This document shows positions 28,450 through 43,296 of a stretch of DNA of 43,296 bases, piece after piece. Under the pieces are notes generated by a model. That model ran no database searches. It was not told where the DNA came from and saw only the letters and a list, made by a program, of their open reading frames with translations. The position numbers were made by a program, and so were the translations under genes. This DNA comes from a virus. The stretch is from IMG/VR virus record IMGVR_UViG_3300033064_000830, positions 1 through 43,296 of that record. One strand, given 5' to 3'. Numbering within the stretch: the stretch's first letter is position 1; each line of letters starts with the position of its first letter.

Positions 28450-28611
28450 TCAGTTAGGTATGGTACGGACAAGATTCATTTCTCGTCCTCCACGCACATG
28501 CTTTATGCAACGCGGGGGTTCATTAAGAACCACATTGGTAATTATACCATTGTCACAAGCAGGACACTGCCATACTTGTGATCCTTTGGGATACTCCCTT
28601 TGTTTACTCAT
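28450..28611 (-). CDS. Small zinc-ribbon-like protein (53 aa)
   Basis: ATG at 28611 overlaps the RusA stop (ATGA) and follows AGAGGAAC. The product reads MSKQREYPKGSQVWQCPACD then NGIITNVVLNEPPRCIKHVR and ends REMNLVRTIPN. A CPAC pair plus a later Cys/His pair (C-IKH) suggests a single zinc-binding knuckle. Common style of tiny phage early proteins. Function unknown. Confidence 0.65.
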   Translation of the reverse strand: MSKQREYPKGSQVWQCPACDNGIITNVVLNEPPRCIKHVRGGREMNLVRTIPN

Positions 28612-29027: not shown

Positions 29028-29217
29028 GTAAGTCCATATCTGAGTAGAGTGCTGACTCTAGACACTCTACTTTGACTGAACAACTTTCGCATATGGCACG
29101 TATTAGTTTGATTTGAGTTATTTTTACACCAACATCAGGGAAAAAGAAGTTAACATCCATTCCTCGGCAGGCTGCTTTTATACGCCACTCTTCATTTTTG
29201 TGATGATATAACCTCAT
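28870..29217 (-). CDS. whiB: WhiB-family iron-sulfur transcription regulator
   Basis: 115 residues. The four cluster Cys are C17 (AACRG), C43 and C46 (AICESC), C52 (VECL), and the G(V/I)WGG-type turn is present as GFFGG (65-69) followed by KSPRERRAIR, the basic helix that contacts DNA. WhiB proteins are found almost only in Actinobacteria and their phages, where they bind the sigma factor and redirect host transcription. ATG overlaps the stop of the RDF-like gene (ATGA). The C-terminal 35 residues overlap RusA coding sequence. This is the best single host indicator in the window. Confidence 0.92.
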   Translation of the reverse strand: MRLYHHKNEEWRIKAACRGMDVNFFFPDVGVKITQIKLIRAICESCSVKVECLESALYSDMDLHGFFGGKSPRERRAIRSQEEWDLNPVRTTSTVYDNESTKALDLECKNEKSLA

Positions 29218-30227
29218 ACGGTTTTCCAGATTGGAACACCATCAGGGCTAATACCCATAGGAATAATGGTGCCAGCAACCATACGATCATGCGCCGACTG
29301 CAACCTCATATAGTTATCGTCAGTCAAAGCAAACTCTTTACCCTTAATCTGACGAACAATAGCCGACCACAATTGCAACCCATTCAAGTCAAAGAACTCT
29401 GCATCTTTAATAATAAGATCACGCAAAGCAATCTCACGAGGATCTTCGTCAACCAGCTCCGCTTCAATCACATCGTCATCTGACGCAACTACCGATGTGC
29501 TACGAGGCAACGCAACTTGTGTTGTCGTCATACCAATACCAGCAATCTGTGCATGACCAGCAAGAATCTGATTAGGCGAATCTAACATAGTTAAAGTAGG
29601 GCAAACAAAGTTACGCTTACCAGAAGGACGCATCTGCGAACGCTTCTCAATACCAAGAGCAACACGAACCATACTACCTGACTCATTTAACTGACCAATC
29701 AGATCAGCCATACCAGGCAACTCTTTCAAAGCATTCCAACCTTTAGTTTCTAAACGCCACACGCCTCGAAACGGCACGTTAGGTAGTAACACTTTGAGTC
29801 GTGTATGTGGTGAGCATTCCATATTGTTTTTACCTACACAAATACATGGTGTTTCAACAGGTTCCCATTGACCAGGACCGGTCTGTTGAGGAACCTGACA
29901 TTTTTCACCGTCACAACGACGCAACAATCCACTACCCGCATACATCTCATACCAAGTAGACACAGGGTTAGGTGGCAAGAACACTTCAATACTGTTGGCT
30001 TGCGTAACAACTTCCCATTGGTTATTAGGTGAAGCTTTAGGGTCATTCCAAGGTTGTACTGTGCCACCATACTGTTCGGCTAATGCCTCAATGCAATCTT
30101 TAAACGGTGAAGTAAACCTGAAAGTATCAAGGGACTTCATAGCCTTACCTGTGCGTATACCTAGGCGGATACGACCAGCCTCGGGTGCACGAGTCTCAAT
30201 ATCAGCTAACGGTTGTATTGGTCTCAT
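29214..30227 (-). CDS. phiC31 Gp3-like (recombination directionality factor family) protein
   Basis: 337 residues. The beginning MRPIQPLADIETRAPEAGRI (with RLGIRTGKAMKSLDTFRFTS next), LAEQYGGTVQPWNDPKASPN, a Cys cluster (RRCDGEKC, PCICVG, MECSPHTRL) and FRGVWRLETKGWNALKELPG match the Gp3-like RDF family as I know it from actinophages. In phiC31 this protein turns the serine integrase to excision. No integrase is visible here, so it may have another role in DNA metabolism or serve a host-encoded enzyme. The C-terminal third is helical. It overlaps both neighbours slightly. Confidence 0.75.
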   Translation of the reverse strand: MRPIQPLADIETRAPEAGRIRLGIRTGKAMKSLDTFRFTSPFKDCIEALAEQYGGTVQPWNDPKASPNNQWEVVTQANSIEVFLPPNPVSTWYEMYAGSGLLRRCDGEKCQVPQQTGPGQWEPVETPCICVGKNNMECSPHTRLKVLLPNVPFRGVWRLETKGWNALKELPGMADLIGQLNESGSMVRVALGIEKRSQMRPSGKRNFVCPTLTMLDSPNQILAGHAQIAGIGMTTTQVALPRSTSVVASDDDVIEAELVDEDPREIALRDLIIKDAEFFDLNGLQLWSAIVRQIKGKEFALTDDNYMRLQSAHDRMVAGTIIPMGISPDGVPIWKTV

Positions 30228-30741
30228 AAGTTTGTTTTGCCTCCAAGGTCAGACGATCCATCTCTTTGAGATAAGCATCGTTAGATGCGTCGTAGAACGC
30301 ATCTTCGTCATCTTCATTATAGTCAGGTAGGTTAACTTCACCAATTCCTTCGTCAAACAAAATTTCACCGTTGCGCACAACGGTTACACCTAAGAATTCC
30401 ATACCTCGTTCTTCGTACTGCATTAAGAATGTGAGCGTAGGAAACGGTTCTGAAATTTTTTGCAAGAAATTTGTTGAATATGGACCCCACGCTGTTTGGT
30501 AATGAAAGATTGCTTCATCAACAACTTCTTTAAACAACCGTGTATCGTAGTCGCCCCACTTAGTACCCCAATTATCGCAACACCACGCATACCAACCATC
30601 ACCCTTGAACTCATCAGGGATAGGCATGTGCTGAGCAATCACATAAGGTTCTTTATCGTCGCATTTAGTAATGTGAATAAAGCGACGGATATCTACATCC
30701 GGTCCAGTAATTACTAGCGTATTATCACAATGATTAGGCAT
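30202..30741 (-). CDS. Api92-like ferredoxin-fold protein (DUF1281 type)
   Basis: I choose ATG 30741 (TGATG overlap with the previous stop, product starting MPNHCDNTLVITGP); an ATG three codons earlier lies directly on the ribosome site. The N-terminal MPNxCxNTL.ITGP, AQHMPIPDEFKGDGWYAWCC and DNWGTKWGDYDTRLF are the conserved blocks of this family, widespread in phages and plasmids. 179 residues, acidic C-terminus. Biological role not established. Translationally coupled to both neighbours. Confidence 0.75.
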   Translation of the reverse strand: MPNHCDNTLVITGPDVDIRRFIHITKCDDKEPYVIAQHMPIPDEFKGDGWYAWCCDNWGTKWGDYDTRLFKEVVDEAIFHYQTAWGPYSTNFLQKISEPFPTLTFLMQYEERGMEFLGVTVVRNGEILFDEGIGEVNLPDYNEDDEDAFYDASNDAYLKEMDRLTLEAKQTYETNTTVS

Positions 30742-31019
30742 CAGCCCCATCCTCTCGTACGGTATTCTCTATCTTCAGGCGGATCAGGCGGCTCATTAAG
30801 CATCCTTAAATAATTTTCAACAGACTCTGTGTAATCACCAGTGCCATGCCAAACTTCAGTACTGCAATGAACACCATCTTTAAACAACGGCATAGCCCAC
30901 TGTTCATAATGTTCCCAATATGTATCGGTATTAAAAAAAGCTTCAGCAGCAGAGTCATAATCATCTCGTGCTTCACACTCATCTTGATACGGTTCTTCTA
31001 ACCAAGCATCATAATCCAT
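30741..31019 (-). CDS. Small acidic Tyr/Trp-rich protein, unknown
   Basis: Start taken at ATG 31019 (MDYDAWLEEPYQDECEARDD); a longer frame with a hydrophobic N-terminus upstream overlaps the next gene and seems artificial. The 92-residue product is strongly acidic (YDSAAEAFFNTDTYWEHYEQ) and ends in a Pro/Glu/Arg tail. DNA-mimic or regulatory roles are possible from the charge, but nothing specific is seen. AAAGGGA lies upstream. Confidence 0.6.
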   Translation of the reverse strand: MDYDAWLEEPYQDECEARDDYDSAAEAFFNTDTYWEHYEQWAMPLFKDGVHCSTEVWHGTGDYTESVENYLRMLNEPPDPPEDREYRTRGWG

Positions 31020-31026
31020 AATAATT

Positions 31027-31470
31027 TTAATCCCTTTCGATAGGAACATAACGAACACGGTCAGTGCTAGGTACACGCTGAACATAACCATTCTCCTCTA
31101 ACACTCCACGCACTTTTGCAAGCACATTACGTTGTTGACGGACACCACTAATACGCTCTGCACGCTCTAACAAATCATCATCAGACACAGGCTGATTACC
31201 ATTAACAGCATACGCATCACGAATAGCCTGATAAGCCAACTTTGCTAAGCCCTTGTCAGTACGTATCCGCCGTACAGCCTTATGACTGGACGGCGGATCA
31301 AACGTACGAGCATCAACACGCATTAAATTAGAGTCACTGTTATGAAACAAACATTTTTCAGCATCAACCATTGCATCAATTAAAGTATTAATTTGAATGT
31401 TAATACCAGTTTCAGGTTGTTTTTGTTGTTCTTTAGGACTATATGCCTCTAATGGTAATTCGAATTGCAT
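31027..31470 (-). CDS. Predicted winged-helix DNA-binding protein
   Basis: 147 residues. A divergent N-terminus (MQFELPLEAYSPKEQQKQPE) precedes AVRRIRTDKGLAKLAYQAIR and a winged-helix-like module: SDDDLLERAERISGVRQQRN, VLAKVRGVLEENGYVQRVPS, then a beta wing TDRVRYVP. The arrangement fits a small regulator or replication accessory protein of actinophages. ATG overlaps the preceding stop by one base. Confidence 0.55.
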   Translation of the reverse strand: MQFELPLEAYSPKEQQKQPETGINIQINTLIDAMVDAEKCLFHNSDSNLMRVDARTFDPPSSHKAVRRIRTDKGLAKLAYQAIRDAYAVNGNQPVSDDDLLERAERISGVRQQRNVLAKVRGVLEENGYVQRVPSTDRVRYVPIERD

Positions 31471-31727
31471 CAGAAGCTTTCGGCCTCAACTACAACAGGA
31501 ACATAACGCACATAGATATCAAACAAAGAAGTACCCTTCTCGTTCTTACCCTTAGATACGCTACGAACTTCAAGACCTTCATAAGTCTTACGAAGCACAA
31601 ACGCATTAGATGCATACGTATCTGTACGCCACAATGCCCATGAACCAGGGTTGGTCTTAAGTGCATCAACAAATTCGCTATGTTGCGAATGCTTCTTTGC
31701 TGGTGGATTACTCCAATTGATTTCCAT
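31470..31727 (-). CDS. Small actinophage hypothetical protein
   Basis: 85 residues: MEINWSNPPAKKHSQHSEFV then DALKTNPGSWALWRTDTYAS, NAFVLRKTYEGLEVRSVSKG and a beta-rich end with DIYVRYVPVVVEAESF. The FVDALK.NPG.WA pattern recurs in early regions of actinophages as far as I recall. Looks like a small alpha/beta DNA-metabolism accessory; no catalytic motif. Preceded by AAGGAGAAAT. Confidence 0.65.
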   Translation of the reverse strand: MEINWSNPPAKKHSQHSEFVDALKTNPGSWALWRTDTYASNAFVLRKTYEGLEVRSVSKGKNEKGTSLFDIYVRYVPVVVEAESF

Positions 31728-31736
31728 TATTTCTCC

Positions 31737-33014
31737 TTATTCATTTTCATCTTCGAGATCTTCATCATCCTCATCCTCATCAGGCATATCGGGCATATCT
31801 AACATTGCTGGTGTTTCAAGACCTTGACTTGCAAGCACGGGTTCAATGTCATCATCTAACTCACCGTTGTCATACATACAACACAATAATGCTTGAATAA
31901 CATTCTCAGAACTAGCACTAAGCCATCCATCCCAAACATCTCCACAATCATCAAAATCTAAACCAAGCAATGACTCAACTGAGCTTTGCGCATCATACAT
32001 TTCATTAACAAGCGTACGAATAGCACTACGCAACATAGGTTGGCGAGCAGTATGAGTTTTATCTGTAATCAAACTCTTGACAATTATTTTAGAAGCTAAC
32101 TTATAGTTAGTTAAAGCATCATGATTGATCTTGCGAACACGATCACGCTCATCATGGTAAGCATCCCAAGGATCAACACCATCAATAGACTCAGCAGTAC
32201 GCTCAGCGACAACGATTCCGTTATAACTCTGATACAACACATCAGAATCTGATGGCATATACTTATCAAGTTGATCAGTAGCCATCACAGCAATTACTTC
32301 AACATTAAAGTCTGGCCGACTATCAAGCACTGTATAGCGAGACTTAAACTCATCAACAATCTTCTTATCAAGAGCACGCGCATCAGCACGACGAGCACCA
32401 TCAATATCCCAAGAACTAAACTCAACAGCCTTACCAGGCTCAACCTTTAAAGCTTTCTTAACCAAAGGCTTCAACGATTCCTCACTAATACCAACCATCT
32501 GTGTAGCATCAGACAACTTGATAGCTTTATCAGCAAGCAACGAACGCACATCATCAGGCAACGTCAACAACTGCAACCGCTGAGACACATAACTTTGAGA
32601 CTTACCAATCCGTGCAGCAATATCAGTTTGCGTAATACCACCATCAGCAAGCACTTTGAAAGCCGTAGCTTCATCAAGTGGTGACAGATTTTCACGCTGA
32701 AGATTCTCAACCAACATTACTTGCGTAACGGACTGCTCATTAAGATCATCACGCACCAATACAGGCACAAGCCAATCAAGCGTATGGATACGCTTCAATG
32801 CTTCAAACCGGCGGTGACCTGCCACAATTACGAATGTGCCAGCACTATCCTCACATTCCTGCACAATCAAAGGTGACAGCAAACCAACCTGAGTAATTGA
32901 CTGCAACAAACCTTCAATACCATCTTCGTCCATAAAGCTACGGACATTATTGCTAGAAGGAATAAGATCCTTCAACGCAACATGAATAATCTCATTAGTA
33001 ATAATGTTACTCAC
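31737..33014 (-). CDS. ParB-like protein (ParB/RepB/Spo0J N-terminal domain)
   Basis: 425 residues. The N-terminal domain (about 8-100) has IIHVALKDLIPSSNNVRSFM, the GHRRFEA box and VMLVENLQRENLSPLDEATA; a helix-turn-helix follows (GGITQTDIAARIGKSQSYVS, about 130-155). The middle is less conserved and the C-terminus is extremely acidic (DMPDMPDEDEDDEDLEDENE). ParB proteins clamp on DNA using CTP. In a phage it might serve plasmid-like partition, regulation or DNA condensation. No ParA-like partner is visible. I found no obvious parS repeats by eye. Confidence 0.85.
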   Translation of the reverse strand: MSNIITNEIIHVALKDLIPSSNNVRSFMDEDGIEGLLQSITQVGLLSPLIVQECEDSAGTFVIVAGHRRFEALKRIHTLDWLVPVLVRDDLNEQSVTQVMLVENLQRENLSPLDEATAFKVLADGGITQTDIAARIGKSQSYVSQRLQLLTLPDDVRSLLADKAIKLSDATQMVGISEESLKPLVKKALKVEPGKAVEFSSWDIDGARRADARALDKKIVDEFKSRYTVLDSRPDFNVEVIAVMATDQLDKYMPSDSDVLYQSYNGIVVAERTAESIDGVDPWDAYHDERDRVRKINHDALTNYKLASKIIVKSLITDKTHTARQPMLRSAIRTLVNEMYDAQSSVESLLGLDFDDCGDVWDGWLSASSENVIQALLCCMYDNGELDDDIEPVLASQGLETPAMLDMPDMPDEDEDDEDLEDENE

Positions 33015-33258
33015 AACACTCCTTTATCATTTCATCTAACGCATCTAAATCAAGATCACGATCTAAATAACCAACACCATCAGGCGTAGCTTGCGTAATT
33101 TCTAACAACGAATCGTAAACAAAATCTTGATACGATTTTCCAACACCATTCTCTACCATTAAACGATAAAGACCTTCATCGTTGTTCAACCATAAGACAA
33201 CATTCCAAGTCTCATAGTTTTTCCAACCGTTATACGTTGTATCTGTTTCTATAGCCAT
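33007..33258 (-). CDS. DUF7249-like small protein
   Basis: 83 residues starting MAIETDTTYNGWKNYETWNV, followed by VLWLNNDEGLYRLMVENGVG. The block YNGW.NYETWNV.LW..ND..LY is a short domain seen in many phages (DUF7249 as I remember it). The C-terminus is acidic (DRDLDLDALDEMIKECCE). Overlaps ParB-like start by 8 nt. Function unknown. Confidence 0.72.
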   Translation of the reverse strand: MAIETDTTYNGWKNYETWNVVLWLNNDEGLYRLMVENGVGKSYQDFVYDSLLEITQATPDGVGYLDRDLDLDALDEMIKECCE

Positions 33259-33404
33259 TCTGTTAAATCTCCATCTGCTATTTCGTTATAATCAAGATTG
33301 TTTGCAGCAGCAATTGCTTCCCATACGGAATCTTCTGTTAAAGGTTCATCAGGGTCAAGAAAATCTTGCCAGTTAGAAAACTTAGTTCCTTTATTTGGTG
33401 TCAT
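33249..33404 (-). CDS. Small acidic protein (51 aa)
   Basis: ATG 33404 follows AGGAGAATAAA; the stop overlaps the next start. The product MTPNKGTKFSNWQDFLDPDE continues PLTEDSVWEAIAAANNLDYN and ends EWL. Acidic and helical. A genuine-looking gene by ribosome site, spacing and overlap. Function unknown. Confidence 0.6.
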   Translation of the reverse strand: MTPNKGTKFSNWQDFLDPDEPLTEDSVWEAIAAANNLDYNEIADGDLTEWL

Positions 33405-33413
33405 TTTATTCTC

Positions 33414-34358
33414 CTAAAATGGATCTCTAATAGTTACTGGAACCGCATTATCCTGGACACACTGCTCTTGCCAATCACAATAATCACAGAACCAAACCTT
33501 GCCAGTATCCTCAATGATCGTAGGCTCAAGCGCATTCAAACGAATCCACTGGCCACGACTTGGATCACTAATGAACGCACCATACGGAATAGAATCATCA
33601 TGAATAGCAGTAGGCACAGTAAAGTCCTCAATGCTCATTAACTTAGACACATGTAAGATACGATCAATCTCACGATACGCAAGCGCCTCATACTCATCAC
33701 GTGTGTAATGCCACTCGGCAGCAAACCTGCCAAGATCACCAGGCACATAAGCTTTCATGCTAGGTGACAAATTCTCCATTGCAAGATAAGCAACAACAAC
33801 ACGATCAGCATCAAGAGACAGAGCAGACAAAGCAGCCTGCAACACATGACCAGAACGTGGACCTTGAGCCGGACCTTTGAAGTCTGTAGCCATAGACTTG
33901 AAACCAAAACCATTAACAGTCTTGAACTCAACAACAGCATCAACAGAACCATCATCGTGATAAGTCACAATGTCAGCATGCGCCGAACCCTCAACACCAA
34001 TGTTACGAAGATCAACTTGAACCTCAAACTTGGCTGTCGGAAACGCATTAGCCATAGCATCCTCTAACCCAGCATGTACCAATGTGCCCAACGACATTCG
34101 ATAAGCATCAGCAATGTTGGGGATAGGTCGTGGCGTATTAGCCATACCGTAAGCCAACTGGCGATCACAACGAAACGCAGTAAACGAAGCACGATACGGT
34201 AACCCTGCAACAGCAGTAGCACGCATGTGTTCACCCTTATCTTGATACTGTTGATACCACGATTCGGCAACAGCTTTTACAAAGATTGGGTAACCCGTAG
34301 GCGGCACTCCACCTGTACGGTATGACTCTGCCAACCCTGATAGATCTTTCTTAACCAT
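33414..34358 (-). CDS. Cas4/RecB-like PD-(D/E)XK exonuclease with iron-sulfur cysteines
   Basis: 314 residues. Motifs in order: C64 in FRCDRQLAYGM, LGTLVHAGLED (H95), GSAHADIVTY (D129), VDAVVEFKTV (E144-x-K146), the QA motif in SGHVLQAALSAL (Q174), and C-terminal C291, C294, C300 (CDYCDWQEQC). The four Cys are the Cas4/AddB-type cluster. Such phage enzymes process DNA ends for recombination-dependent replication and would work with the SSB and RusA encoded nearby. AAGAAAGAGAATA lies upstream of ATG. Confidence 0.88.
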   Translation of the reverse strand: MVKKDLSGLAESYRTGGVPPTGYPIFVKAVAESWYQQYQDKGEHMRATAVAGLPYRASFTAFRCDRQLAYGMANTPRPIPNIADAYRMSLGTLVHAGLEDAMANAFPTAKFEVQVDLRNIGVEGSAHADIVTYHDDGSVDAVVEFKTVNGFGFKSMATDFKGPAQGPRSGHVLQAALSALSLDADRVVVAYLAMENLSPSMKAYVPGDLGRFAAEWHYTRDEYEALAYREIDRILHVSKLMSIEDFTVPTAIHDDSIPYGAFISDPSRGQWIRLNALEPTIIEDTGKVWFCDYCDWQEQCVQDNAVPVTIRDPF

Positions 34359-34423
34359 ATTATTCTCTTTCTTGACTCACGGCGTGTCCATTCGCCTTGC
34401 CAATATGTACTGCAATTATACAG

Positions 34424-34798
34424 TTATGCGGTCTTACTTACTACCTCGTCGGAGAAAATGTAATCATCTTCTTTCCAACCTTTAACTATCTCATCAGCAT
34501 CAACCTCATACATCGCATCAAAAATACGGCAATCAATACACTGACACAACGCATGATGCTCAGCAATATCAACATCTTCCGATATTGCATACACATCAAT
34601 TAACTCTTGAACATTCATAAGTAACCCTCCGTTACGAATAAAAATATTGAAATCAACCAAACATCTACGACACAAAGACCAGTAACCCTGCCCTAATATT
34701 GTGTGCGCTTCAATAGTCCCGTGCTCCGATGCATGTGTCATGCATCTAGCGCACTTAACTATGTGACTAGAAATCGGGATCCGATGTATATCCCACAT
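34424..34798 (-). CDS. Two-part Cys-rich protein with a second strong internal start
   Basis: 124 residues as read from ATG 34798: an N-terminal zinc-ribbon-like part with CARC and CRRC, then MNVQELIDVYAISEDVDIAE with CQCIDC. An in-frame ATG at 34618 is preceded by GGAGGG (34625-34630) six bases away, the best ribosome site in this stretch, so a separate 64-residue product is likely. Either two products share a frame, or the upstream part is an untranslated or fused remnant. Function unknown. Confidence 0.55.
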   Translation of the reverse strand: MWDIHRIPISSHIVKCARCMTHASEHGTIEAHTILGQGYWSLCRRCLVDFNIFIRNGGLLMNVQELIDVYAISEDVDIAEHHALCQCIDCRIFDAMYEVDADEIVKGWKEDDYIFSDEVVSKTA

Positions 34799-35030
34799 TT
34801 AAAATGCTAGACAAACAATCACGCAACAAAGTCGCTTGTTCGATATCATAAATAAATAACTCCTTGTATTTAATGCCTGTCTCAATATGATGAATCAATT
34901 CTAAGACTCCGACTTCCGCCGAAGTCTTAGAATTAACATCATTCATAAGAAACACACCAACATCTTTAACAACTAAAGTACTTGGCGAATCCAATACATA
35001 CTTTTGGATATCTGCTTCTGTAATTAACAA
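34767..35030 (-). CDS. Small early protein, unknown
   Basis: 87 residues from TTG 35030, supported by AGGAG five bases upstream. The product starts MLITEADIQKYVLDSPSTLV and has alternating beta/alpha pattern (KDVGVFLMNDVNSKTSAEVG, KELFIYDIEQATLLRDCLSS). It overlaps the next gene by 32 nt. Function unknown. Confidence 0.6.
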   Translation of the reverse strand: MLITEADIQKYVLDSPSTLVVKDVGVFLMNDVNSKTSAEVGVLELIHHIETGIKYKELFIYDIEQATLLRDCLSSILNVGYTSDPDF

Positions 35031-35042
35031 ACTAACTCCTAA

Positions 35043-35477
35043 TCAGAACGGATCTTCTTCAACAACTGACGCATTGAAAGCAGCAGAAGCCGCAACAATA
35101 CTGGGTGAATTAGAACCTGAACCGTTCTTATCGGTCTTAGTCACAACAGTAGTAGCCCAACGCAACGACGGACCGATCTCATCAAGAACAAGATCATAAG
35201 ACGTACGCTTATTACCATCTTTGTCAACCCAATCGTTTTGCTCCATACGGCCAGTAGCAACAACACGCATACCCTTGGTCATACTCGACGCAATATTCTC
35301 AGCAAGTTCACGCCAAGCAGTAAAGTTAAAGAAACTAGTCTGCTCCTGCCACTCACCATTAACCTGATACCGGCGATTAGAAGCAATACTTCCACTCACC
35401 ATTGCAGTACCACTCTGTGTGAACCGTAACTCAGGTTCACCAGTAAGGTTCCCTACAACATTAATGCTATTACTCAT
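35043..35477 (-). CDS. ssb: Single-stranded DNA-binding protein
   Basis: 144 residues with an OB fold: MSNSINVVGNLTGEPELRFT, SIASNRRYQVNGEWQEQTSF, FNFTAWRELAENIASSMTKG, MRVVATGRMEQNDWVDKDGN. The acidic tail ends EEDPF, matching the D/E-rich ...PF tip of bacterial SSBs that recruits partner proteins. Protects ssDNA during replication and recombination; with the nuclease and RusA it forms the only clear DNA-replication set in the genome. ATG overlaps the next frame by 8 nt. Confidence 0.93.
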   Translation of the reverse strand: MSNSINVVGNLTGEPELRFTQSGTAMVSGSIASNRRYQVNGEWQEQTSFFNFTAWRELAENIASSMTKGMRVVATGRMEQNDWVDKDGNKRTSYDLVLDEIGPSLRWATTVVTKTDKNGSGSNSPSIVAASAAFNASVVEEDPF

Positions 35478-35676
35478 GTGCTATCTCCATATCATTGAGC
35501 GGGACATCATATCCCACTTCTGCTTGTGTTAGAAACGCTTCCGCGTTAAACTTTTTGTATTCACTAAACGTATCGGACAGCATGTATGCAACCCGATCTA
35601 TCATTCGTAACTGTGTAACACTAGAGGCATAACCTCTAGAGTCGCGCAATGTGCGAGCAACATCAGAATAAATCAA
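35470..35676 (-). CDS. Small protein upstream of SSB, unknown
   Basis: 68 residues from TTG 35676, with AAGGAA upstream. Starts MIYSDVARTLRDSRGYASSV, helical, continues TQLRMIDRVAYMLSDTFSEY. The stop overlaps the SSB start. It may be translated coupled with SSB. Function unknown. Confidence 0.6.
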   Translation of the reverse strand: MIYSDVARTLRDSRGYASSVTQLRMIDRVAYMLSDTFSEYKKFNAEAFLTQAEVGYDVPLNDMEIAHE

Positions 35677-35678
35677 AC

Positions 35679-36143
35679 TTATGATTCCTTAACTGGCAAG
35701 AAGGTACTTGCTTTACGCATAACCTCATCATAAAGGAACTCATCGTATGTCGATTCATCCCACTCAATAGTTTCTTTAAGGTCCAAGTAACCAAGATGCA
35801 CATTAACTATTGGTGCATCATTAAACATACCGAAACGAATCTCAGCAAGAATACATTCGCCATGTGAATGACGAACAATAAGATCGCCACTAGATAACTC
35901 AGCAATCCTATAATCAAGGATCTGATCCCAATAAGCAAGCAAAGCATTACGTTCATCACTGTCATACGCCCATGATGAAGGTGTTTGCACTTGCAAAGTT
36001 GGACCTGATGCACCGTTATAACTATCAGCAAACATCATTGTTGCTTGCACCCACAATTCAACAGCATCATGTATCTGTTCTGTTACAGCATTGCAAACAA
36101 CTGCTCGCGCAACATTGTTTGGCTTATCATACTTTTTAGTCAT
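35679..36143 (-). CDS. Hypothetical early protein
   Basis: Two ATGs lie side by side; 36143 is five bases from AGGAGG (36149-36154) and preferred, 36146 is only two away. The 154-residue product begins MTKKYDKPNNVARAVVCNAV, with a long helix, then DLIVRHSHGECILAEIRFGM and an acidic end. A beta-alpha layout is likely. No recognised family. Confidence 0.62.
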   Translation of the reverse strand: MTKKYDKPNNVARAVVCNAVTEQIHDAVELWVQATMMFADSYNGASGPTLQVQTPSSWAYDSDERNALLAYWDQILDYRIAELSSGDLIVRHSHGECILAEIRFGMFNDAPIVNVHLGYLDLKETIEWDESTYDEFLYDEVMRKASTFLPVKES

Positions 36144-36152
36144 CATGCCCTC

Positions 36153-36644
36153 CTAGGCTAATTCAACTTCATGATTAGAATACTCAATATCATCGCAACT
36201 ACCACGGACACTTACATCAAACGAACTCAGATCCATATTAGCGGCCTGATCATTAGCATCATCCTTATCAAGAGCACTAATTGTAGTACTCACCGTGATA
36301 ATAAACGTTGCTGTAACTTCATAATCATGTGTTCGTTCTTCTAAAGCAATAGACAACGTGCTATTTAACTTACCAACGAACGCATCATATAGATCACACC
36401 AGTCACGATCATTAGCTTCTTGAATCAAAGCTTCACCAATCATTTTAATATCTGACTGATGATTCTTACGCGAGTTACCAGCATTGGTCTGCCAATAATT
36501 ACGATCAACAGTAGTAGCAATCAAAGCATCCTTCAACTCTTGAACAAACTCGCTATACCAACGAGTCTGATCATTCCAAGTTTCTAATGCATCTGGCAAT
36601 GTGCGGCTAATTAATTCTTCATAATACATCTTGATCTGTCCCAT
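36153..36644 (-). CDS. Hypothetical early protein
   Basis: 163 residues: MGQIKMYYEELISRTLPDAL, a helical N-terminal half with SDIKMIGEALIQEANDRDWC, then a beta-rich half (ERTHDYEVTATFIITVSTTI) and an acidic C-terminus. An alternative ATG five codons in (MYYEELI) is equally possible. This helical-then-beta layout is seen in other phage early proteins that accompany replication genes. Function unknown. Confidence 0.62.
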   Translation of the reverse strand: MGQIKMYYEELISRTLPDALETWNDQTRWYSEFVQELKDALIATTVDRNYWQTNAGNSRKNHQSDIKMIGEALIQEANDRDWCDLYDAFVGKLNSTLSIALEERTHDYEVTATFIITVSTTISALDKDDANDQAANMDLSSFDVSVRGSCDDIEYSNHEVELA

Positions 36645-37077
36645 CTAGTTTACCTTCTGCAAGGCTTTGAATATAAATTAATGCAACCTGATCAATAGCA
36701 TCAGCCAACGCGCCGGCACCAGGCTCATCCATAATCTCAAAATCATCACTGTCTTGCCACAAAATTGCTGTATGACAAACACCAACATTCATTTGAATAT
36801 ACAAACGCATACGACGCCTAGCAGGATGTTCACTAGGCCGACCATCAGTATCGTCTTTTGGTGCAGCCCAACCATGCATAGTCAACATAGACACACCATC
36901 CATACCATGATAAACAAACGGCGCAACAAGGTCATACGGCGAATTACCTTCAGCCGCAACTACCCATGTGCCATTAATACGGGTAAACACAATCGCATTA
37001 TGATCCCAACCGTGCTCATAATCATACACAGGATAAAACTCTGTGAAAATATCTTTGATTGATTCCATAGTTTCCAT
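36619..37077 (-). CDS. Hypothetical early protein
   Basis: ATG 37077 lies three bases after GGAGGG; an upstream ATG at 37098 overlaps the previous stop but has no ribosome site. The 152-residue product METMESIKDIFTEFYPVYDY has NAIVFTRINGTWVVAAEGNS and later RRRMRLYIQMNVGVCHTAIL, a mixed alpha/beta pattern with many aromatic residues, then a helical end. No catalytic motif recognised. Confidence 0.6.
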   Translation of the reverse strand: METMESIKDIFTEFYPVYDYEHGWDHNAIVFTRINGTWVVAAEGNSPYDLVAPFVYHGMDGVSMLTMHGWAAPKDDTDGRPSEHPARRRMRLYIQMNVGVCHTAILWQDSDDFEIMDEPGAGALADAIDQVALIYIQSLAEGKLDGTDQDVL

Positions 37078-37094
37078 AACCCCTCCAGGCTTAC

Positions 37095-37484
37095 TCATTT
37101 GATATAACCAACAACACTCTTATATGTGCCAGCATTAACAGTCTCAACATCACTCATCTCAAGAAGCTTGATAGCGTTCTCAAGTTCAATAACTTCGTAA
37201 CCTCGAACAAATTCAATATCAATAACAACAGGCTTCAAACGGAAATTTATTGGCGTCTTAAAACTAACTTCAATACAAGGCTCACTACGAAAATTCTGCG
37301 TATGCATATAATTAAGTTCAAGCTTGCGACCATAAATTAGTTCAAGAACTTTCTGCTCATACACTTCCATAGAAGATTTGTTCAACTGCATAATGTTGTC
37401 ATTAGCAATCTGCAAATCAACACGCTCCTGCAACGCCACCTTTAAAGCAGCAATCAACTTCATACGATTAACTTTAATATTCAT
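37095..37484 (-). CDS. Hypothetical early protein with coiled-coil start
   Basis: 129 residues. The N-terminal KVNRMKLIAALKVALQERVD is helical and resembles the opening of a common actinophage early protein (MKVNR.KL..AL..AL). The middle SEPCIEVSFKTPINFRLKPV is beta-like, and the end VIELENAIKLLEMSDVETVN helical. Function unknown. AGGAGGACGA precedes the start. Confidence 0.62.
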   Translation of the reverse strand: MNIKVNRMKLIAALKVALQERVDLQIANDNIMQLNKSSMEVYEQKVLELIYGRKLELNYMHTQNFRSEPCIEVSFKTPINFRLKPVVIDIEFVRGYEVIELENAIKLLEMSDVETVNAGTYKSVVGYIK

Positions 37485-37516
37485 TCGTCGTCCTCCTCAG
37501 AACTAAACATTTTTTC

Positions 37517-37735
37517 TCAACAATCTTGGTGATAACCAAGCTTGATCATTTCACGCTGGCCCGCAGATAAATCAGACCAAACATCCTGAATCAAAGACCC
37601 AGAATCCCACAGCCGATACTTCACAGCATCAACAACAACAAAATACATCTCATTACAAATAAGACACAAACGATCTAACGTATAAGTTTCTTTAGCATCA
37701 TTACTAAAATCAAACCAATGATCCAACTTACTCAT
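37517..37735 (-). CDS. Small zinc-binding-type early protein
   Basis: 72 residues: MSKLDHWFDFSNDAKETYTL then DRLCLICNEMYFVVVDAVKY, RLWDSGSLIQDVWSDLSAGQ, REMIKLGYHQDC. The order C-x2-C ... Y..W..G..IQ..W.DLS...RE.I..G...C is a frequent phage protein pattern, likely binding zinc at one end. It overlaps the next gene by 4 nt. Function unknown. Confidence 0.7.
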   Translation of the reverse strand: MSKLDHWFDFSNDAKETYTLDRLCLICNEMYFVVVDAVKYRLWDSGSLIQDVWSDLSAGQREMIKLGYHQDC

Positions 37736-37950
37736 ACCAACTCCAATACTGGATGCACTTCACAACCACAACCATCGCAAATAAGCATGTGCCTAACAGG
37801 AACATCCATCTCATCCCACCCATAAATACCCAAACACTGAGCACTCTCGTTATACAAACTCCAACACGGTGGGCAATACTCAAAGAACTCTTTATCCATA
37901 CTGTCATCTTCGACGTATGAAACAAACGAAACAACATAATTAGATTTCAT
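37732..37950 (-). CDS. Small Cys-rich protein, unknown
   Basis: 72 residues, ATG preceded by AAGGAGTGTT. The product begins MKSNYVVSFVSYVEDDSMDK and has CPPC near the middle and CDGCGC near the end, enough for one zinc site. A second reading in another frame overlaps almost fully and is a shadow. First gene after the 220-bp gap that may hold a leftward promoter. Confidence 0.65.
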   Translation of the reverse strand: MKSNYVVSFVSYVEDDSMDKEFFEYCPPCWSLYNESAQCLGIYGWDEMDVPVRHMLICDGCGCEVHPVLELV

Positions 37951-38173
37951 AACACTCCTTAGATAGTCGGGGGATGAGCAGTTTTACAACATGCTCAGGT
38001 TGTGCATACAGATAACCATGGGGCTCATGCATACAAGATGAGACACAATACGCTGGTCGTTATCAATCCAGACACGTCACTAACGGCACGTGCAACCGCT
38101 TGGCTCGCGGCGCAACCCCTATCTCCCGCATGTAGTTTGCTTATATGTACATACTTCGTGCTATTGCCAAACC
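37951..38173 (-). promoter_or_regulatory. Gap with candidate leftward promoter and structured leader
   Basis: No credible gene. On the minus strand TTGGCA (38170-38165) and ATATAA (38146-38141) form a -35/-10 pair with 18-bp spacing, which would start a leader of about 180 nt before the gene at 37950. The leader contains short inverted repeats (CACGT/ACGTG around 38074-38093). A plus-strand frame at 38002-38223 is not protein-like. Confidence 0.35.
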
Positions 38174-38446
38174 TTAAAAACGATTGTCATCCTCAATCTT
38201 GTCCAACAAAAAGACAGGATTAGGAAACGACTCATCACCATGAAACCGGTAATTTAAAACACCAATCTCACGATTAAGAGCTTCAATCTTACGATACAAA
38301 GCACGCTGCCACTTAGCATTCTTACCAAAAGGATTAAACAAAATTTTGTTATAAGTCAAATCAGAAACATTGTCCAAAACATATTCCAATTGACCAATCT
38401 CAGCATTAATATTTTCTAATTCTTTTAAATACTCTTTGTAATACAT
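38174..38446 (-). CDS. Coiled-coil early protein, unknown
   Basis: ATG 38446 is five bases after GGAGG; an in-frame TTG four codons earlier is the alternative. The 90-residue product MYYKEYLKELENINAEIGQL has a long heptad helix, then LFNPFGKNAKWQRALYRKIE and a second helix. Charged and soluble. Function unknown. Confidence 0.6.
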   Translation of the reverse strand: MYYKEYLKELENINAEIGQLEYVLDNVSDLTYNKILFNPFGKNAKWQRALYRKIEALNREIGVLNYRFHGDESFPNPVFLLDKIEDDNRF

Positions 38447-38551
38447 AATGACCTCCAAGTCACAGCATTTATTTATGTGCTAAACGAAATTGTTTTGGGT
38501 TAGGTAAATGAGTGATAGTGACCGGTATCGACCACCGATGAAAGGTAGAGC

Positions 38552-38605
38552 ACGAGAGGGAACGGCTCGTCGTGTGACGAGGGGTGCGTTCCCCCCTCGT
38601 TGCAC
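38552..38605 (-). other. Structured region with two mutually exclusive foldings
   Basis: Fold A: ACGAGGGG pairs with CCCCTCGT around 38577-38601. Fold B: GGGAACG just upstream pairs with CGTTCCC, which is the loop and first stem base of fold A, extended by ACGAG/CTCGT, with an inner CTCGT/ACGAG hairpin. Either an attenuator-like switch or a pseudoknot. It lies between the terminator of the 360-residue gene and the next leftward gene. Confidence 0.4.
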
Positions 38606-38615
38606 GATACGGGCG

Positions 38616-38665
38616 CAAAAAAAAAAGAGAAGTAGGCTGGTGGTGGCTTTCGCCACCACCAGCCT
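38616..38665 (-). terminator. Intrinsic terminator for the leftward 360-residue gene
   Basis: A perfect 14-bp stem (38634-38647 with 38652-38665), AGGCTGGTGGTGGC / GCCACCACCAGCCT. On the minus strand its loop is GAAA (a GNRA loop), and it is followed after a short spacer by ten T (38626-38617 on that strand). Lies nine bases past the stop of the gene starting at 39756. The GNRA loop and T-run show that it serves leftward transcription. Confidence 0.85.
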
Positions 38666-38673
38666 TTACTGAC

Positions 38674-39756
38674 TCAGAAGTCAGGTAGAGCAGGAACACC
38701 CGCTTTAGCCAACTCCTTGTCCTGCTCATCAGACAGACGAGCCTCACGTTGATCTGCTGATTCCTCTAATCGCTCCGATTCCGTAGCATGACGGTAAAGA
38801 ACTGATAACGCCTTAGCGATCCGTTCCATCTCCGACTTCGCTTCCTCCAAGTAGGCGAAACCTTTGAACCAACTGTCAACATGACCAGCCGAGAACTTGT
38901 CAAAGTCAAGGAAACTTTGACCTTCATACTTAGTTCCCTCAGTCCCAGTTCGGGTAGGCAACGAAACTTTCTGACCATTGAACTTAGTGAACTCTGAACT
39001 GACCCGCATGATCGCGTAGTTCCAACCGTACTTGGCGTTGGTGTAACTGTTGACTGGAACGTCCACACAAACCAAGTAGTCGCAATCTTGAGACATCATG
39101 CCATTGGAACTCAGAGGCAACCAGAACTTTGAGTACGCAACCGACTCAAACTCAACCAAACTGTTTCGTACTGGACGACGCTTTTCAGAACCATCGTCCT
39201 TGATGTCCGTCACCCAATGTGAAATCTGAGCCAGTTGGATCATTGCCGACTTGGCTTTGAACATCTGATTCTTAAGTTGAGTAGGTGTGTAAGTACCACG
39301 CGATGAAAGAATTCTTTCACACAGTGACTCAACCGTAATAACTTGGGTCGTCATTGCTTGATTGAGAATCTCCAGTGCTTCCACCACATTCTCAGTACCA
39401 CGTAGGCGAACTTCTGGCTTTTCCGTCATGTCAATTGCCATGTCACCAGCGTCTCGCTTTTCCTCGCTCGTTCGGCCGTCAACGACTTTGGTAACTTCTT
39501 GAACTTTCTGACTTTCCTTCATGATTTCCTCCATAGGGATATAAGTGATTTCACCGGTTGTGAAATCAACATTGACTTTATGATTGATTGACTTCTTGTC
39601 AACTGTCAATTGACCAGTCGCCAATCCTTGCTTCATTAATGCTTCTGAACGCTCCGGATTCGTTTCTCTAGATTCAACCATCTCGCACATTTCGTCAATG
39701 GTCAACAAGATTTGCTGACGCTTCATATTGGTTTTGTAAAATAGTTGATGATACAT
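38674..39756 (-). CDS. Large early protein (360 aa), unrecognised
   Basis: ATG 39756 has GGAGG about nine bases upstream; a second ATG at 39726 overlaps the previous TGA. The product starts with a helical MKRQQILLTIDEMCEMVESR, carries INHKVNVDFTTGEITYIPME, a highly charged linker, and a core from about 120 with TTQVITVESLCERILSSRGT, AMIQLAQISHWVTDIKDDGS and KFWLPLSSNGMMSQDCDYLV. The last 50 residues are coiled-coil (LEEAKSEMERIAKALSVLYR). Its own terminator and composition (less A/C-skewed than the genes after it) mark it as a separate transcription unit. An abundant early protein is likely. I do not recognise a family. Confidence 0.7.
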   Translation of the reverse strand: MYHQLFYKTNMKRQQILLTIDEMCEMVESRETNPERSEALMKQGLATGQLTVDKKSINHKVNVDFTTGEITYIPMEEIMKESQKVQEVTKVVDGRTSEEKRDAGDMAIDMTEKPEVRLRGTENVVEALEILNQAMTTQVITVESLCERILSSRGTYTPTQLKNQMFKAKSAMIQLAQISHWVTDIKDDGSEKRRPVRNSLVEFESVAYSKFWLPLSSNGMMSQDCDYLVCVDVPVNSYTNAKYGWNYAIMRVSSEFTKFNGQKVSLPTRTGTEGTKYEGQSFLDFDKFSAGHVDSWFKGFAYLEEAKSEMERIAKALSVLYRHATESERLEESADQREARLSDEQDKELAKAGVPALPDF

Positions 39757-40019
39757 AGTGGCTTTCCTCCGTGATTGACTCGAATGGTGATTGTGAGGGG
39801 GATTCCTCGTGTTGTCATACGACTCTCAACGGTCACGACTTGTAGACCGTTAGGAAAAACTTTGATGATGGTTACTGGCACAACCTTTGCTGTGCCAGTA
39901 ACACCTACATCAACTACATCTAACTTATCCATTACAACCTGTTCAGCACTAGGTTCAACTAAACCTAACTGATTCATCTTGTAACCGACATAATCAAAAT
40001 TCGGTAAATTATTATTCAT
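39723..40019 (-). CDS. Hypothetical early protein
   Basis: 98 residues: MNNNLPNFDYVGYKMNQLGL, then beta-rich VDVGVTGTAKVVPVTIIKVF and MTTRGIPLTITIRVNHGGKP. GAGGTTGAA precedes ATG. The end overlaps the 360-residue gene by 34 nt, so the two are coupled. A small beta-barrel-like protein; function unknown. Confidence 0.6.
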   Translation of the reverse strand: MNNNLPNFDYVGYKMNQLGLVEPSAEQVVMDKLDVVDVGVTGTAKVVPVTIIKVFPNGLQVVTVESRMTTRGIPLTITIRVNHGGKPLCIINYFTKPI

Positions 40020-40020
40020 T

Positions 40021-40389
40021 TCAACCTCCGCTCAGCATATGAATCTTGAACCCATAATCCCTACCAACCATCAACATATGGTTAGTACCTTTTCCACCAC
40101 GGACTGCAACAACCTGAACCGCACCACCAAACTCGCTGATTACCGACTTCGCGTAATCAGCCATTTCAAAGTTTCGCTGAAACCCCGCGTTTTTTCCTAA
40201 CCTGTCCCATTCGGCTTTAATAACTATTACTTCAATGCCAGCACGCTCTGCTTCAAACACTGCAATCGTATCTGCACCTCGCGCACCACCAGCAATAACC
40301 AAGTTGCTTTGCGTTTTAGAAAAAAACCTTCTCCAAAACTCGTTTTCATCGTTATCTCTACCTCCGCAAACAATGGTGATCATTTTCAT
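40021..40389 (-). CDS. SLOG-domain (YspA/YAcAr-like) nucleotide-binding protein
   Basis: 122 residues, ribosome site AGAGGAG. The start MKMITIVCGGRDNDENEFWR, the central LVIAGGARGADTIAVFEAER, then EWDRLGKNAGFQRNFEMADY and RGGKGTNHMLMVGRDYG show the GGRD, GGARGAD and GK.AG..RN..M motifs of the SLOG family (Rossmann-like, related to DprA). Related proteins are thought to bind nucleotides or nucleotide signals. First gene of the leftward arm, so expressed first after entry if the promoter is in the adjacent non-coding block; a role against host defence is possible (inference). Confidence 0.78.
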   Translation of the reverse strand: MKMITIVCGGRDNDENEFWRRFFSKTQSNLVIAGGARGADTIAVFEAERAGIEVIVIKAEWDRLGKNAGFQRNFEMADYAKSVISEFGGAVQVVAVRGGKGTNHMLMVGRDYGFKIHMLSGG

Positions 40390-40406
40390 TACTTACTCCT
40401 CTCAAG

Positions 40407-40426
40407 GAGAAGTCGAACGACTTCTC
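40407..40426. other. Hairpin in the leader of the SLOG gene
   Basis: GAGAAGTCG / CGACTTCTC, a 9-bp perfect inverted repeat with a two-base centre, just upstream of the leftward ribosome site (AGAGGAG). Could be a dyad operator or an mRNA hairpin. It is the first of the many inverted repeats in the adjoining block. Confidence 0.5.
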
Positions 40427-40484
40427 GCTCCGCAGGAAGGAGAAAACCCCTCCTGGGAGAAACTGAGGGCGACAACGAACATAG

Positions 40485-40559
40485 AAATTTTTGGGTGATA
40501 GTGAATGGGGTCGTATCCGTCGTTTGTTATGTACGACCCTAAATACCACCCAAAAATTT
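40485..40559. other. Long two-tier hairpin at the edge of the non-coding block
   Basis: Outer stem AAATTTTTGGGTG (40485-40497) pairs CACCCAAAAATTT (40547-40559), 13 bp perfect. Inner stem GGGTCGTA (40508-40515) pairs TACGACCC (40532-40539), 8 bp perfect. Beyond it, AAAAAGG (40573-40579) can pair CCTTTTT (about 40653-40659) around a branched inner part with AAACAG/CTGTTT. It may belong to the large RNA or be a boundary/terminator structure; no gene lies here. Confidence 0.65.
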
Positions 40560-40719
40560 TGTTAGGCGGTCGAAAAAGGTTTTTTGGCATGGCTAAAGAT
40601 CTAGAGTAAACAGCGCCCTCCTGTTTGCCTAGAGCGACGCCGTGGTAAAAAGCCTTTTTTGATCAACGACAGAACCAGTGTAACGCACAGTTTTTCAGGG
40701 GTTTTTGGGAGTGCGGGAC

Positions 40720-41563
40720 GGGTTGCGCCGTAGCGCAACCCACCGATTGATTCGCTGACCGAGGATTTTTTCGCAATCTTTTCCGCGAAAAAATAAATAT
40801 GATAGGTCCTGCAAATGCGAGGAAACTTTGGCGAATCATTACTTTTCCCTGCGGTGCCTTTCCGCTGGGGAAAGGGCGGTGGGCGGAAGCCCGTGGCCCC
40901 GCTACCCATCTTTTTCGAAAGTTTGGTTCTTTCGGAAAAGGGGCGATTTTGGGTGCGCACGGAAATCTACTCTTATGTCCTCAGCGATTTCCCGCGCACC
41001 CACAATCGTGGGGTGCCGAAGTTAGAGTCAGAGGGGGGGTCGGGTGGTATTCCCGACCGTGCGAGGAGCACGCGACGAGCCGTGAAAAATAGTGAGCGAA
41101 GCTCTACCTCCCCAACCCCCGATTCTGGGACTTCTTTCGGAATAAAGACGATCTTGTGGCAATGCCCGTAGGCATTTGGAGGCTTCCGGGGGCGAGTGTG
41201 TTCTATGTTATGTTCGTCCTCGGAAGCCTCCAAACTCGGTTGTCCATGAGCGTCCCGAAAGTTGGGGGTTACCTCCCCACGATTGAGAGAGGGTTACAAA
41301 CGGTCAGGGTAGCGAAGCATCACCGATTGCCCTCTCCGTGGGGCGGGGGGGACCCAATACCCATCGTCCTGCGTCCCTAAATATTCGTGGGCGCCTCGCG
41401 CCCCTGCGTTATAGAACTCGCTTGCGAGAGGTAGTAGCGAGAACGAGCCAAAAGGCGAAGGCGTCGGGTGCGGGTGTCCCGCGTCCTTGACCTTATCCCT
41501 AGCCCTCGTGTTGGAGACCGCCCTCTGGGCTCCAACCGCAGTGTCTGAGACTACGGCTCAGAC
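40720..41563. ncRNA. Candidate giant ornate non-coding RNA (or multi-hairpin DNA element)
   Basis: GC-rich block without credible genes but with many helices. GGGTTGCGC/GCGCAACCC 40720-40741; ATTTTTTCGC/GCGAAAAAAT 40765-40794; GGGC-GGAA-GCCC 40881-40892; CTTTTTCGAAAG/CTTTCGGAAAAG 40910-40940 (12 bp, one wobble). A three-segment stem at 40944-41008 has CGATT/AATCG, GGGTGCGC/GCGCACCC and GGAAAT/ATTTCC. Then GGTCGGG/CCCGACC 41038-41058; TTTGGAGGCTTCCG/CGGAAGCCTCCAAA 41175-41234 (14 bp); a coaxial pair CCCCACG/CGTGGGG and GAGAGGG/CCCTCTC 41275-41343; GTTGGAG/CTCCAAC 41510-41536; GTCTGAG/CTCAGAC 41543-41563. The strand is unresolved: a wobble pair and a GNRA loop favour plus, two C(UACG)G loops favour minus. 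The GOLLD/ROOL-like idea is by analogy only. Confidence 0.6.
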
Positions 41564-42177
41564 CGCCCCCAAAAGACAGGTACAATCACCACACACACTA
41601 GGGGACAGACAACACAACACACACACACAAACACCCTGCACAAACACCACCAACCTCACAGTCATGTACTGCTGGGTGGTGTGACGGTGGTAGTTGACCT
41701 TGCGCCGAAGCCGATGAGGTGGTGTCTGTGTGGTCGGCGCTTGCTTGACGACGTTGTTAGGTCTGGTTGCCACCGATGGGAATCTCATTCACCGATGTGC
41801 CCGCACCCCGTCACATATATAATCGTCCTGTCTATTTTTATGTTTCTGTGACAGTGACATTGTTTCACTATTTAAAGACGGGTGACTCTAGTTGTAGGTT
41901 TATCCCCCCACCGTTTCAACATATCTGTTGTGGTGGCCGGTGTTGCAGGACGGAGAACCAGATTCATTTGTGACGTTTGGACGCTGCTCCCTCGCATCAA
42001 GTGCGAAGGTCTACCCACCTTTCGGTGTGTCATCCTCTGTCCCCGTGCAAGGGGGCGGGTCTGTTAGAAGCCTCTTTTGCTTCTTGTCGTTGATCAGTTG
42101 TGGGCGTAAGCTTGATGGTGCATCTACAAAAAATTTTCTTTATAGACGCTTCCTGTGGGAGATGATAGCATGAAGGT
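41564..42177. other. Remaining non-coding stretch before the rightward arm
   Basis: No gene supported. Contains an AC-rich tract (about 41585-41660, CACACACACA-type) facing a GT-rich tract (41670-41740) that can pair, e.g. ACACCACC 41644-41651 with GGTGGTGT 41675-41682, and GCGCCGA/TCGGCGC 41702-41740. A TATAAT at 41818-41823 and TATAGA at 42141-42146 are possible -10 boxes for the rightward arm but lack good -35 boxes. AGAAGC/GCTTCT (42066-42084) is another small hairpin. The rightward promoter should lie in this stretch. Confidence 0.5.
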
Positions 42178-42381
42178 ATGTCATCTTCTTCTTCTTCTGC
42201 CATCATTTTTGAAGATATATGTTTGGTTGCGTATCTTGAAGGGAGATGGGCTTCGCCTTTTACTTTTAAACGAAGTAAACGTGAACATGACGCTGATGCG
42301 GGTGAGGTTCATGCTAGGTTGATGGATTGTGTTCTTGGTGTGATATATTGTCCGTGGTGTGGGGATCGATTTGAAAGTTAG
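42178..42381 (+). CDS. Small Cys-containing protein at the start of the structural arm
   Basis: 67 residues: MSSSSSSAIIFEDICLVAYL, EGRWASPFTFKRSKREHDAD, AGEVHARLMDCVLGVIYCPW, CGDRFES. The CPWCG knuckle near the end looks like half a zinc site. GAAGG lies just upstream of ATG. Similar short proteins with C-terminal CPWCG occur in actinophages. First gene of the rightward arm; function unknown. Confidence 0.6.
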   Translation: MSSSSSSAIIFEDICLVAYLEGRWASPFTFKRSKREHDADAGEVHARLMDCVLGVIYCPWCGDRFES

Positions 42382-42732: not shown

Positions 42733-43296
42733 TTCGACAGTAGTTAAACCTGTTTCCGGTGACAGCACTATTGTTTATACAATTAGTGATGTTAATGGCA
42801 ACTCGTCTACTGTTATCGGTTCCGATACCACTATTGTTATTGAGCAAGGTTCACGTGGATTAACAGGCATACAGGGTATTCAAGGTATTCAAGGTATCCA
42901 GGGTGTTACTGGGACTGCTGCCACGGTCGCTGTCGGGGCGACGACGACTGGCGCTCCTAGTACAGCGGCAGTAGTGACGAACTCTGGTTCGTCCTCTGCC
43001 GCAATTTTTAACTTTACTGTTCCCGAAGGTGTTGTTGGTGCCACTGGCCTAACTGGTTTAACTGGCGCTACTGGTTTAACTGGCACTACTGGTGCCACTG
43101 GCATTCAAGGCATTCAAGGCATTCAAGGAGCCACTGGTGTTACAGGTACGGCAGCAACTATTGCAGTTGGTACGGTTAGTGCAGGAACGGCCGCAGTAAC
43201 AAATGTTGGATCATCAAGTGCGGCTGTTTTTGATTTTGTTTTACAAACCGGTGCTACTGGTGCTACAGGATCTACAGGAGCTACGGGAGCTACGGG
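42725..43296 (+). CDS. Collagen-like tail fibre, N-terminal part (continues at position 1)
   Basis: GTG at 42725 overlaps the end of the preceding gene by 8 nt. It is the only plausible start, because a TAG lies a few codons upstream in this frame. The product begins VHDSTVVKPVSGDSTIVYT, then has a collagen-like run (GLTGIQGIQGIQGIQGVTG), a module TAATVAVG...SSSAAIFNFTVPEG, a second GXY run (GATGLTGLTGATGLTG) and the start of a second module. The frame stays open to the contig end, where the last 141 bases duplicate 1-141. Residue 144 spans the circular junction. The two modules are homologous, so the fibre shaft grew by internal duplication. The collar/receptor part lies at 1-1246. Confidence 0.87.
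   Translation, partial: MHDSTVVKPVSGDSTIVYTISDVNGNSSTVIGSDTTIVIEQGSRGLTGIQGIQGIQGIQGVTGTAATVAVGATTTGAPSTAAVVTNSGSSSAAIFNFTVPEGVVGATGLTGLTGATGLTGTTGATGIQGIQGIQGATGVTGTAATIAVGTVSAGTAAVTNVGSSSAAVFDFVLQTGATGATGSTGATGAT
43156..43296. repeat. Right copy of 141-bp exact terminal overlap
   Basis: Identical to 1-141. Removing one copy leaves a circle of about 43,155 bp in which the tail-fibre gene is intact. It indicates a complete genome, either circularly permuted by headful packaging or circular in the cell. Confidence 0.9.

Follow-up and report, generated by a model that had tools for sequence, protein, structure and literature searches.

We propose that positions 40407 to ~41443-41563 (plus strand) of a phage genome encode one large multi-domain non-coding RNA of ~1.05-1.15 kb, representing a new family of giant ornate RNAs, a reading to which we give a probability of roughly 0.6 and in which action in trans is suggested by analogy. 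At the level of sequence analysis, we could establish that this region is non-coding, that it folds far better than expected by chance, that pairing in its helices is maintained through compensatory changes in homologues and that it is the plus strand that is folded.

Genomic setting and predicted fold of the region

The window, which is the whole stretch of DNA that was analyzed, is an IMG/VR virus record of 43,296 bp. Its ends form an exact 141-bp direct terminal repeat (1-141 = 43156-43296), which makes it likely that the record covers the complete phage genome; the repeat lies in a collagen-like tail gene. The leftward early arm (genes 27929-40389) encodes ParB-like, Cas4-like and single-strand-binding-like proteins and a SLOG-family protein (40021-40389), the rightward late arm leads from 42178 to tail, terminase and capsid genes, and the structured region lies between these two arms. 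The terminase is only ~26% identical to the best among the matches listed from GenBank phages (unclassified and Streptomyces phages). No tRNA gene was found in the window, and ARAGORN, also run for tmRNA, detected none. Elsewhere in the window, 5701-14679 encodes a 2,992-aa protein with no Pfam match at E up to 0.01, and a long hairpin at 38565-38665 adjoins a minus-strand terminator-like hairpin (14 bp followed by a long T run) that would terminate the leftward operon of the SLOG-like gene.

Folding of 40485-41480 was predicted at -446.9 kcal/mol for the plus strand, compared to -359.6 +/- 6.6 kcal/mol for dinucleotide shuffles (z = -13.3), and at -385.3 kcal/mol (z = -10.0) for the minus strand. 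A preliminary description had called this stretch GC-rich, in agreement with a G+C content of 50-59% compared to roughly 30-53% elsewhere, and had reported at least thirteen helices, which a strand-neutral helix search of 40390-41580 bore out by finding 22 helices scoring at least 7. As evidence, this raw count is weak and was dropped, since equal-sized stretches elsewhere in the genome gave 10-23 such helices and mononucleotide shuffles 9-18. Because helix counts alone are not diagnostic, the case presented here rests on folding energy and on comparison.

The predicted parts of the RNA are collected in Table 1, together with the neighboring element and the equivalent regions of relatives. The coaxial stem of the preliminary description was recovered in domain III, where 40944-40958/40994-41008 stacks on 40961-40967/40986-40992, and the adjacent stems that it placed near 41275-41343 correspond to the stacked helices of domain V. 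Its limits (40485-41563) had to be widened on the left side, where homology to the relative L004 starts from 40385 and a 19-bp helix from 40442. A search of the sequence for a sigma-70-like promoter for the RNA found none, and the sole terminator-like site is internal to the region (1 found vs 2.5 expected in shuffles). Inspection by eye revealed no palindromic kissing loops, and a GNRA loop at 40881-40892 was discarded as a candidate, not being kept in L004.

Table 1. Predicted features of the RNA from 5' to 3', the element downstream and structured regions of relatives (positions are those of the window unless a relative is named)
Feature	Position	Strand	Description
5' hairpins, 40407-40414/40419-40426 and 40428-40459	40407-40465	+	Left edge of conserved unit; z = -5.0 alone
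Domain I	40442-40706	+	Alifold consensus with L004
Domain I closing helix	40442-40451/40697-40706 and 40457-40465/40688-40696	+	19 bp, long-range over ~250 nt
Candidate pseudoknot strand GAGGGCG	40465-40471	+	7-bp perfect inverted match to apical loop 40614-40620 (CGCCCTC)
Domain I inner stems	40485-40500/40544-40559; long stem 40570-40593/40639-40662	+	
Domain II	40748-40838	+	Closing helix 40748-40758/40828-40838
Domain III	40842-41018	+	Hairpins 40842-40854/40862-40874 and 40906-40921/40929-40943; stacked stem 40944-40967/40986-41008
Variable domain	41023-41127	+	Window and L004 poorly alignable, ~49% identity in 41065-41139
Domain IV	41134-41261	+	Helices 41134-41140/41255-41261 and 41147-41163/41239-41254 around 25-bp stem 41175-41199/41210-41234
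Domain V	41276-41342	+	41276-41281/41337-41342 with 41287-41294/41329-41336
Hairpin CTCGC-TT-GCGAG	41411-41431	+	Near 3' end of conserved core
3' module	41465-41563	+	Hairpins 41510-41519/41527-41536 and 41543-41549/41557-41563; common to L009 and L005
Downstream neighbor, outside RNA	41780-42171	+	~390 nt, non-coding, nearly invariant, TATAAT-like box near 41822
Type B structured region	L005 2880-3560; L007 2893-3660		
Type C structured region	L030 1615-2400		Arm junction, above same conserved element

Homologues, compensatory changes and coding potential

Using blastn against loci gathered by their neighboring genes, we identified L004 (IMGVR_UViG_3300032233_000914), the one homologue of nearly full length (81% over 40392-41443), as well as a 3' fragment of the same RNA in L009. 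A scan of IMG/VR with conserved strings of this version of the locus (type A) returned only these two, no additional homologue was detected in the gathered loci with covariance models of domains II and IV, and blastn against 50,697 phages gave no match for the type A region or for the type B region described below. Searching genome contigs with TerL gave one distant match. An additional 3' stretch of L004 that is missing from the window contains, at 3020-3650, recurring CTTGACCTT motifs and small GAGCGAAGCGAG-like hairpins.

The consensus fold of the window and L004 reached -394.1 kcal/mol on the plus strand and -323.7 kcal/mol on the minus strand, compared to -259.3 +/- 8.5 kcal/mol in 60 column shuffles, and contained 20 two-sided compensatory pairs, compared to 7.0 +/- 2.6 in column shuffles. 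Since this consensus was fitted to both sequences, predictions made independently for each sequence were also used: 170 of the 177 shared pairs were unchanged, 3 were compensatory, 4 were one-sided and none was broken, and differences between the two sequences affected 10/354 paired columns vs 28/176 unpaired ones. When the structure was predicted from the window only (pairs with a probability of at least 0.7, poorly aligned stretch excluded), 4 pairs were compensatory in L004 for a null mean of 0.58 (P = 0.0012). As 24/216 of the confident window-only pairs were broken in L004, the structure as drawn is in part incorrect or unconserved; some of these breaks correspond to misaligned hairpins. 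Covariation is based on two sequences only, or three at the 3' end.

Starting from the 5' end, the block 40390-40464 is 85% identical to L004, with small indels. Compensatory pairs between the window and L004 were then found in domain I (40443-40705 AT>CG, 40612-40622 AT>GC and 40613-40621 GC>CG), where L004 has one whole additional hairpin inserted near 40681, in domain III (40962-40991 GC>AT and 40885-41017 GC>AT) and in domain IV (41155-41246 TA>AT), which is the region's best local fold. Judging from this alignment, the stem that closes domain II covaries most clearly, with four compensatory pairs (40748-40838 TA>AT, 40753-40833 CG>TA, 40754-40832 GC>TA and 40755-40831 CG>TA); this stem is absent from the confident window-only pairs. 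Two further compensatory changes were read from the alignment with L009: A41288>C with T41335>G in domain V, and C41417>G with G41428>C in the hairpin at 41411-41431. The alifold helices of the variable domain are uncertain, and an alternative 11-bp long-range match connects 41003-41013 with 41275-41285. The homologous core stops near 41443, and the 3' module is 82% identical to L005 over 41465-41598, the rest of the L005 upstream RNA being different.

The candidate pseudoknot of domain I would be kept in L004 through a G.U pair, the counterpart of the apical loop being CGCCCTT (no statistical test). A search for pseudoknots among unpaired consensus columns gave one 5-bp match vs 0.39 expected, and none was significant; the 7-bp candidate was masked in that search by a weak predicted helix.

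Within the strand-neutral helices, G.U pairs exceeded A.C pairs by 9:1 in the window, 9:1 in L004, 4:0 in L005 and 4:0 in L007, the counts of the window and L004 overlapping in that most of these helices are common to both. Since a transcribed plus strand predicts such an excess and a DNA element does not, this bias points to a plus-strand RNA. Single substitutions in the listed helices had no asymmetry (3 from Watson-Crick to G.U vs 4 from Watson-Crick to A.C); they are few and come partly from the misaligned first hairpin.

The preliminary description also stated that no frame looked like a protein, which needs to be nuanced: ORFs of up to 119 aa are present in the region, and the core ORFs 40601-40960(-), 40815-41171(+), 40799-41092(+), 40973-41233(-) and 41156-41380(+) have in-frame stops or large gaps in L004. 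Neither of two outcomes that it had named as refutations was observed, as no conserved protein frame was found and as stems do not vary without compensation, L004 and L009 showing compensatory changes in several helices. Between the window and L004, most core blocks are 88-95% identical, compared to 80-83% for neighboring coding DNA, which indicates selection on the structured region. Altogether, the folding excess, the compensatory changes and the broken frames support the giant structured non-coding RNA that had been suggested; its production as a single transcript and a GOLLD/ROOL-like action are inferred.

Structured regions at the same site in relatives

The nearly invariant element that follows the RNA, which probably corresponds to a late promoter and leader, is 91-94% identical in close relatives and is found below every version of the locus, including that of the more distant L030. 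Its core pattern is present in 8 IMG/VR records, all within this phage group, and the fold of 41830-42180 is not significant (z = -0.93). At 41870-41905 and equivalent positions, two alternative short versions exist, one in the window, L004 and L008 and the other in L005, L007 and L009; they are not tied to the RNA type, as though independently recombined.

L005 and L006, which are identical to each other, and L007 match the window at 99% in TerL and at 92-93% in this element, and carry upstream of it a different structured region (type B). For type B, z was -5.6 and -7.2 (plus strand) vs -3.0 and -4.6 (minus strand). Two of its parts are kept in both L005 and L007, namely 'dom1', with 2 compensatory pairs and a consensus z of -6.0, and 'hairpin2', with 4 compensatory pairs, a z of -5.3 and -27.1 on the plus strand vs -10.9 on the minus strand. 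Short tandem repeats are also found there, ATCGGTTA-like in L005 and L007 and GGTTTTAA-like in L007. An IMG/VR scan with a type B string returned only L005, L006 and L007. In L030, whose terminase is 86% identical, a third structured region (type C) was detected, with z = -4.6 on both strands (1615-2290); it may have the closing helix TGTCA...AATCG/CGATTTGACA in common with type B, a lead that comes with no test. Neither type A nor type B had a blastn match in four more distant relatives, taken as whole records, and some of these relatives have other well-folded gaps. The contigs of six relatives start inside or just downstream of the locus, as expected if assembly breaks at a hypervariable or strongly folded site.

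It is conceivable, although we hold this idea with less than even confidence, that giant RNAs are interchangeable at a fixed inter-arm locus, with type A in the window, L004 and L009, type B in L005/L006 and L007, and type C in L030. Sequence similarity between the three types is slight or absent; support for types A and B comes from plus-strand covariation, and for type C from folding energy only. Since the RNA is replaced by a different one in close relatives, the phage appears to need some large structured RNA at this site more than it needs the window's sequence. If true, giant structured RNAs would form a rapidly diversifying, allelic phage system, perhaps arising from conflict with hosts or co-infecting phages. 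Close relatives with different RNAs at one spot offer a natural swap experiment between phages differing mainly in that RNA.

Proposed mode of action and relation to known RNAs

In the model that we favor, the region would be transcribed rightward during infection from a promoter of its own located at the left edge (inferred, no promoter having been recognized), giving one ~1.05-1.15 kb transcript that would accumulate during infection and self-fold into five or more domains connected through long-range helices. This RNA would act in trans as an abundant structural particle, possibly a homo-oligomer, and not as a message or a local switch; action in trans and oligomers are proposed only by analogy with GOLLD and ROOL.

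The main rival, which we consider unlikely, is that the region acts in cis as the first part of a long rightward late transcript, modifying RNA polymerase or late-gene expression either by put-like processive antitermination or as a long regulatory 5' UTR. Such a leader would fit with a region that, in each of the three versions of the locus, immediately precedes the late operon in the same orientation, that is always followed by the same conserved element and that has no terminator of its own found between it and the late genes. However, a separate conserved TATAAT-like box is located downstream of the RNA at ~41822, making it the probable start of the late genes; the put-type elements described in phages are also much shorter than this region, and the sequence is swapped wholesale among close relatives.

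An element acting as DNA and not as RNA, its hairpins belonging to a replication origin, a recombination hot spot or a packaging site, was considered improbable. The junction of divergent arms, the hypervariable site, the mosaic modules, the short tandem repeats of L005/L007 and the contigs of several relatives that begin within or just past the region would all suit it, but hairpins in DNA should be strand-neutral, which is at odds with helices containing more G.U than A.C, with an alifold energy 70 kcal/mol better on the plus strand and with the plus-strand preference and compensatory pairs of the type B hairpin. There is very little support for a minus-strand 5' leader of the leftward early operon beginning at 40389: the leftward SLOG-like gene does begin at the left edge, with a promoter that must be located rightward of it, within or past the region, and the minus-strand fold also beats shuffles, but a high minus-strand z is expected from the complement of a plus-strand fold, and for types A and B both the G.U/A.C asymmetry and the consensus energies favor the plus strand. 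Least of all is a divergent GOLLD or ROOL member to be retained, since the comparable size class, phage location and domain style are not accompanied by a tRNA in the window or by any model match, be it at gathering, at E up to 10 or in dedicated searches.

The preliminary description had proposed a comparison with Rfam, naming GOLLD, ROOL, HEARO and OLE, and had left the choice between a new class and a divergent member of a known one. Among 4227 Rfam families, none matched at gathering, and permissive filters with E up to 10 gave only chance matches, mostly to microRNA models; no Rfam model of a group I or group II intron, RNase P or tmRNA matched in the region. Dedicated searches with the GOLLD (RF02032) and ROOL (RF03087) models gave no match, and none in control genomes either; these had no positive control, so the permissive Rfam search is the stronger negative. 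A new class is then the better reading, a divergent GOLLD or ROOL being unsupported by the models. Curated RNA libraries overlook such elements when homologues are few.

To our knowledge, only a handful of giant structured bacterial or phage RNAs have been found, and GOLLD and ROOL are without an established function. The RNA proposed here would add one more family, exceeding most others in size, from a phage genome that is small (43 kb) and probably complete. OLE RNA is also large and ornate and forms a homo-oligomer (PMC12286853), but no Rfam match was found in the window region. In ICP1, a phage without tRNAs, the most abundant transcript is an ~800-nt RNA encoded in a ~1-kb ORF-less gap (PMC7567579); the two RNAs are alike in being large and in lying in a tRNA-less phage, the ICP1 RNA adjoining a lysis cluster (PMC7567579), but blastn of the phage collection with the window region gave no match. 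GOLLD and ROOL both form RNA-only nanocages (PMC12286853). ROOL is similarly large, multi-domain and phage-encoded (PMC12286853) and forms a closed octameric nanocage, but ROOL env-120 is 659 nt long, compared to ~1.05-1.15 kb here, and its model did not match. GOLLD is encoded by phages or prophages, many of its members exceed 800 nt, and it combines conserved and variable regions with an unknown function (PMC12286853); it assembles into a closed 14-mer RNA nanocage and its expression rises at lysis, but it often lies near tRNA islands (frequently, not obligatorily), unlike the region of the tRNA-less window, which its model does not match. As a long non-coding stretch with a multi-domain fold and covariation support, the region meets the definition of a large ornate phage RNA, and we conclude that it belongs to neither GOLLD nor ROOL but represents a new, analogous family of giant ornate phage RNA.
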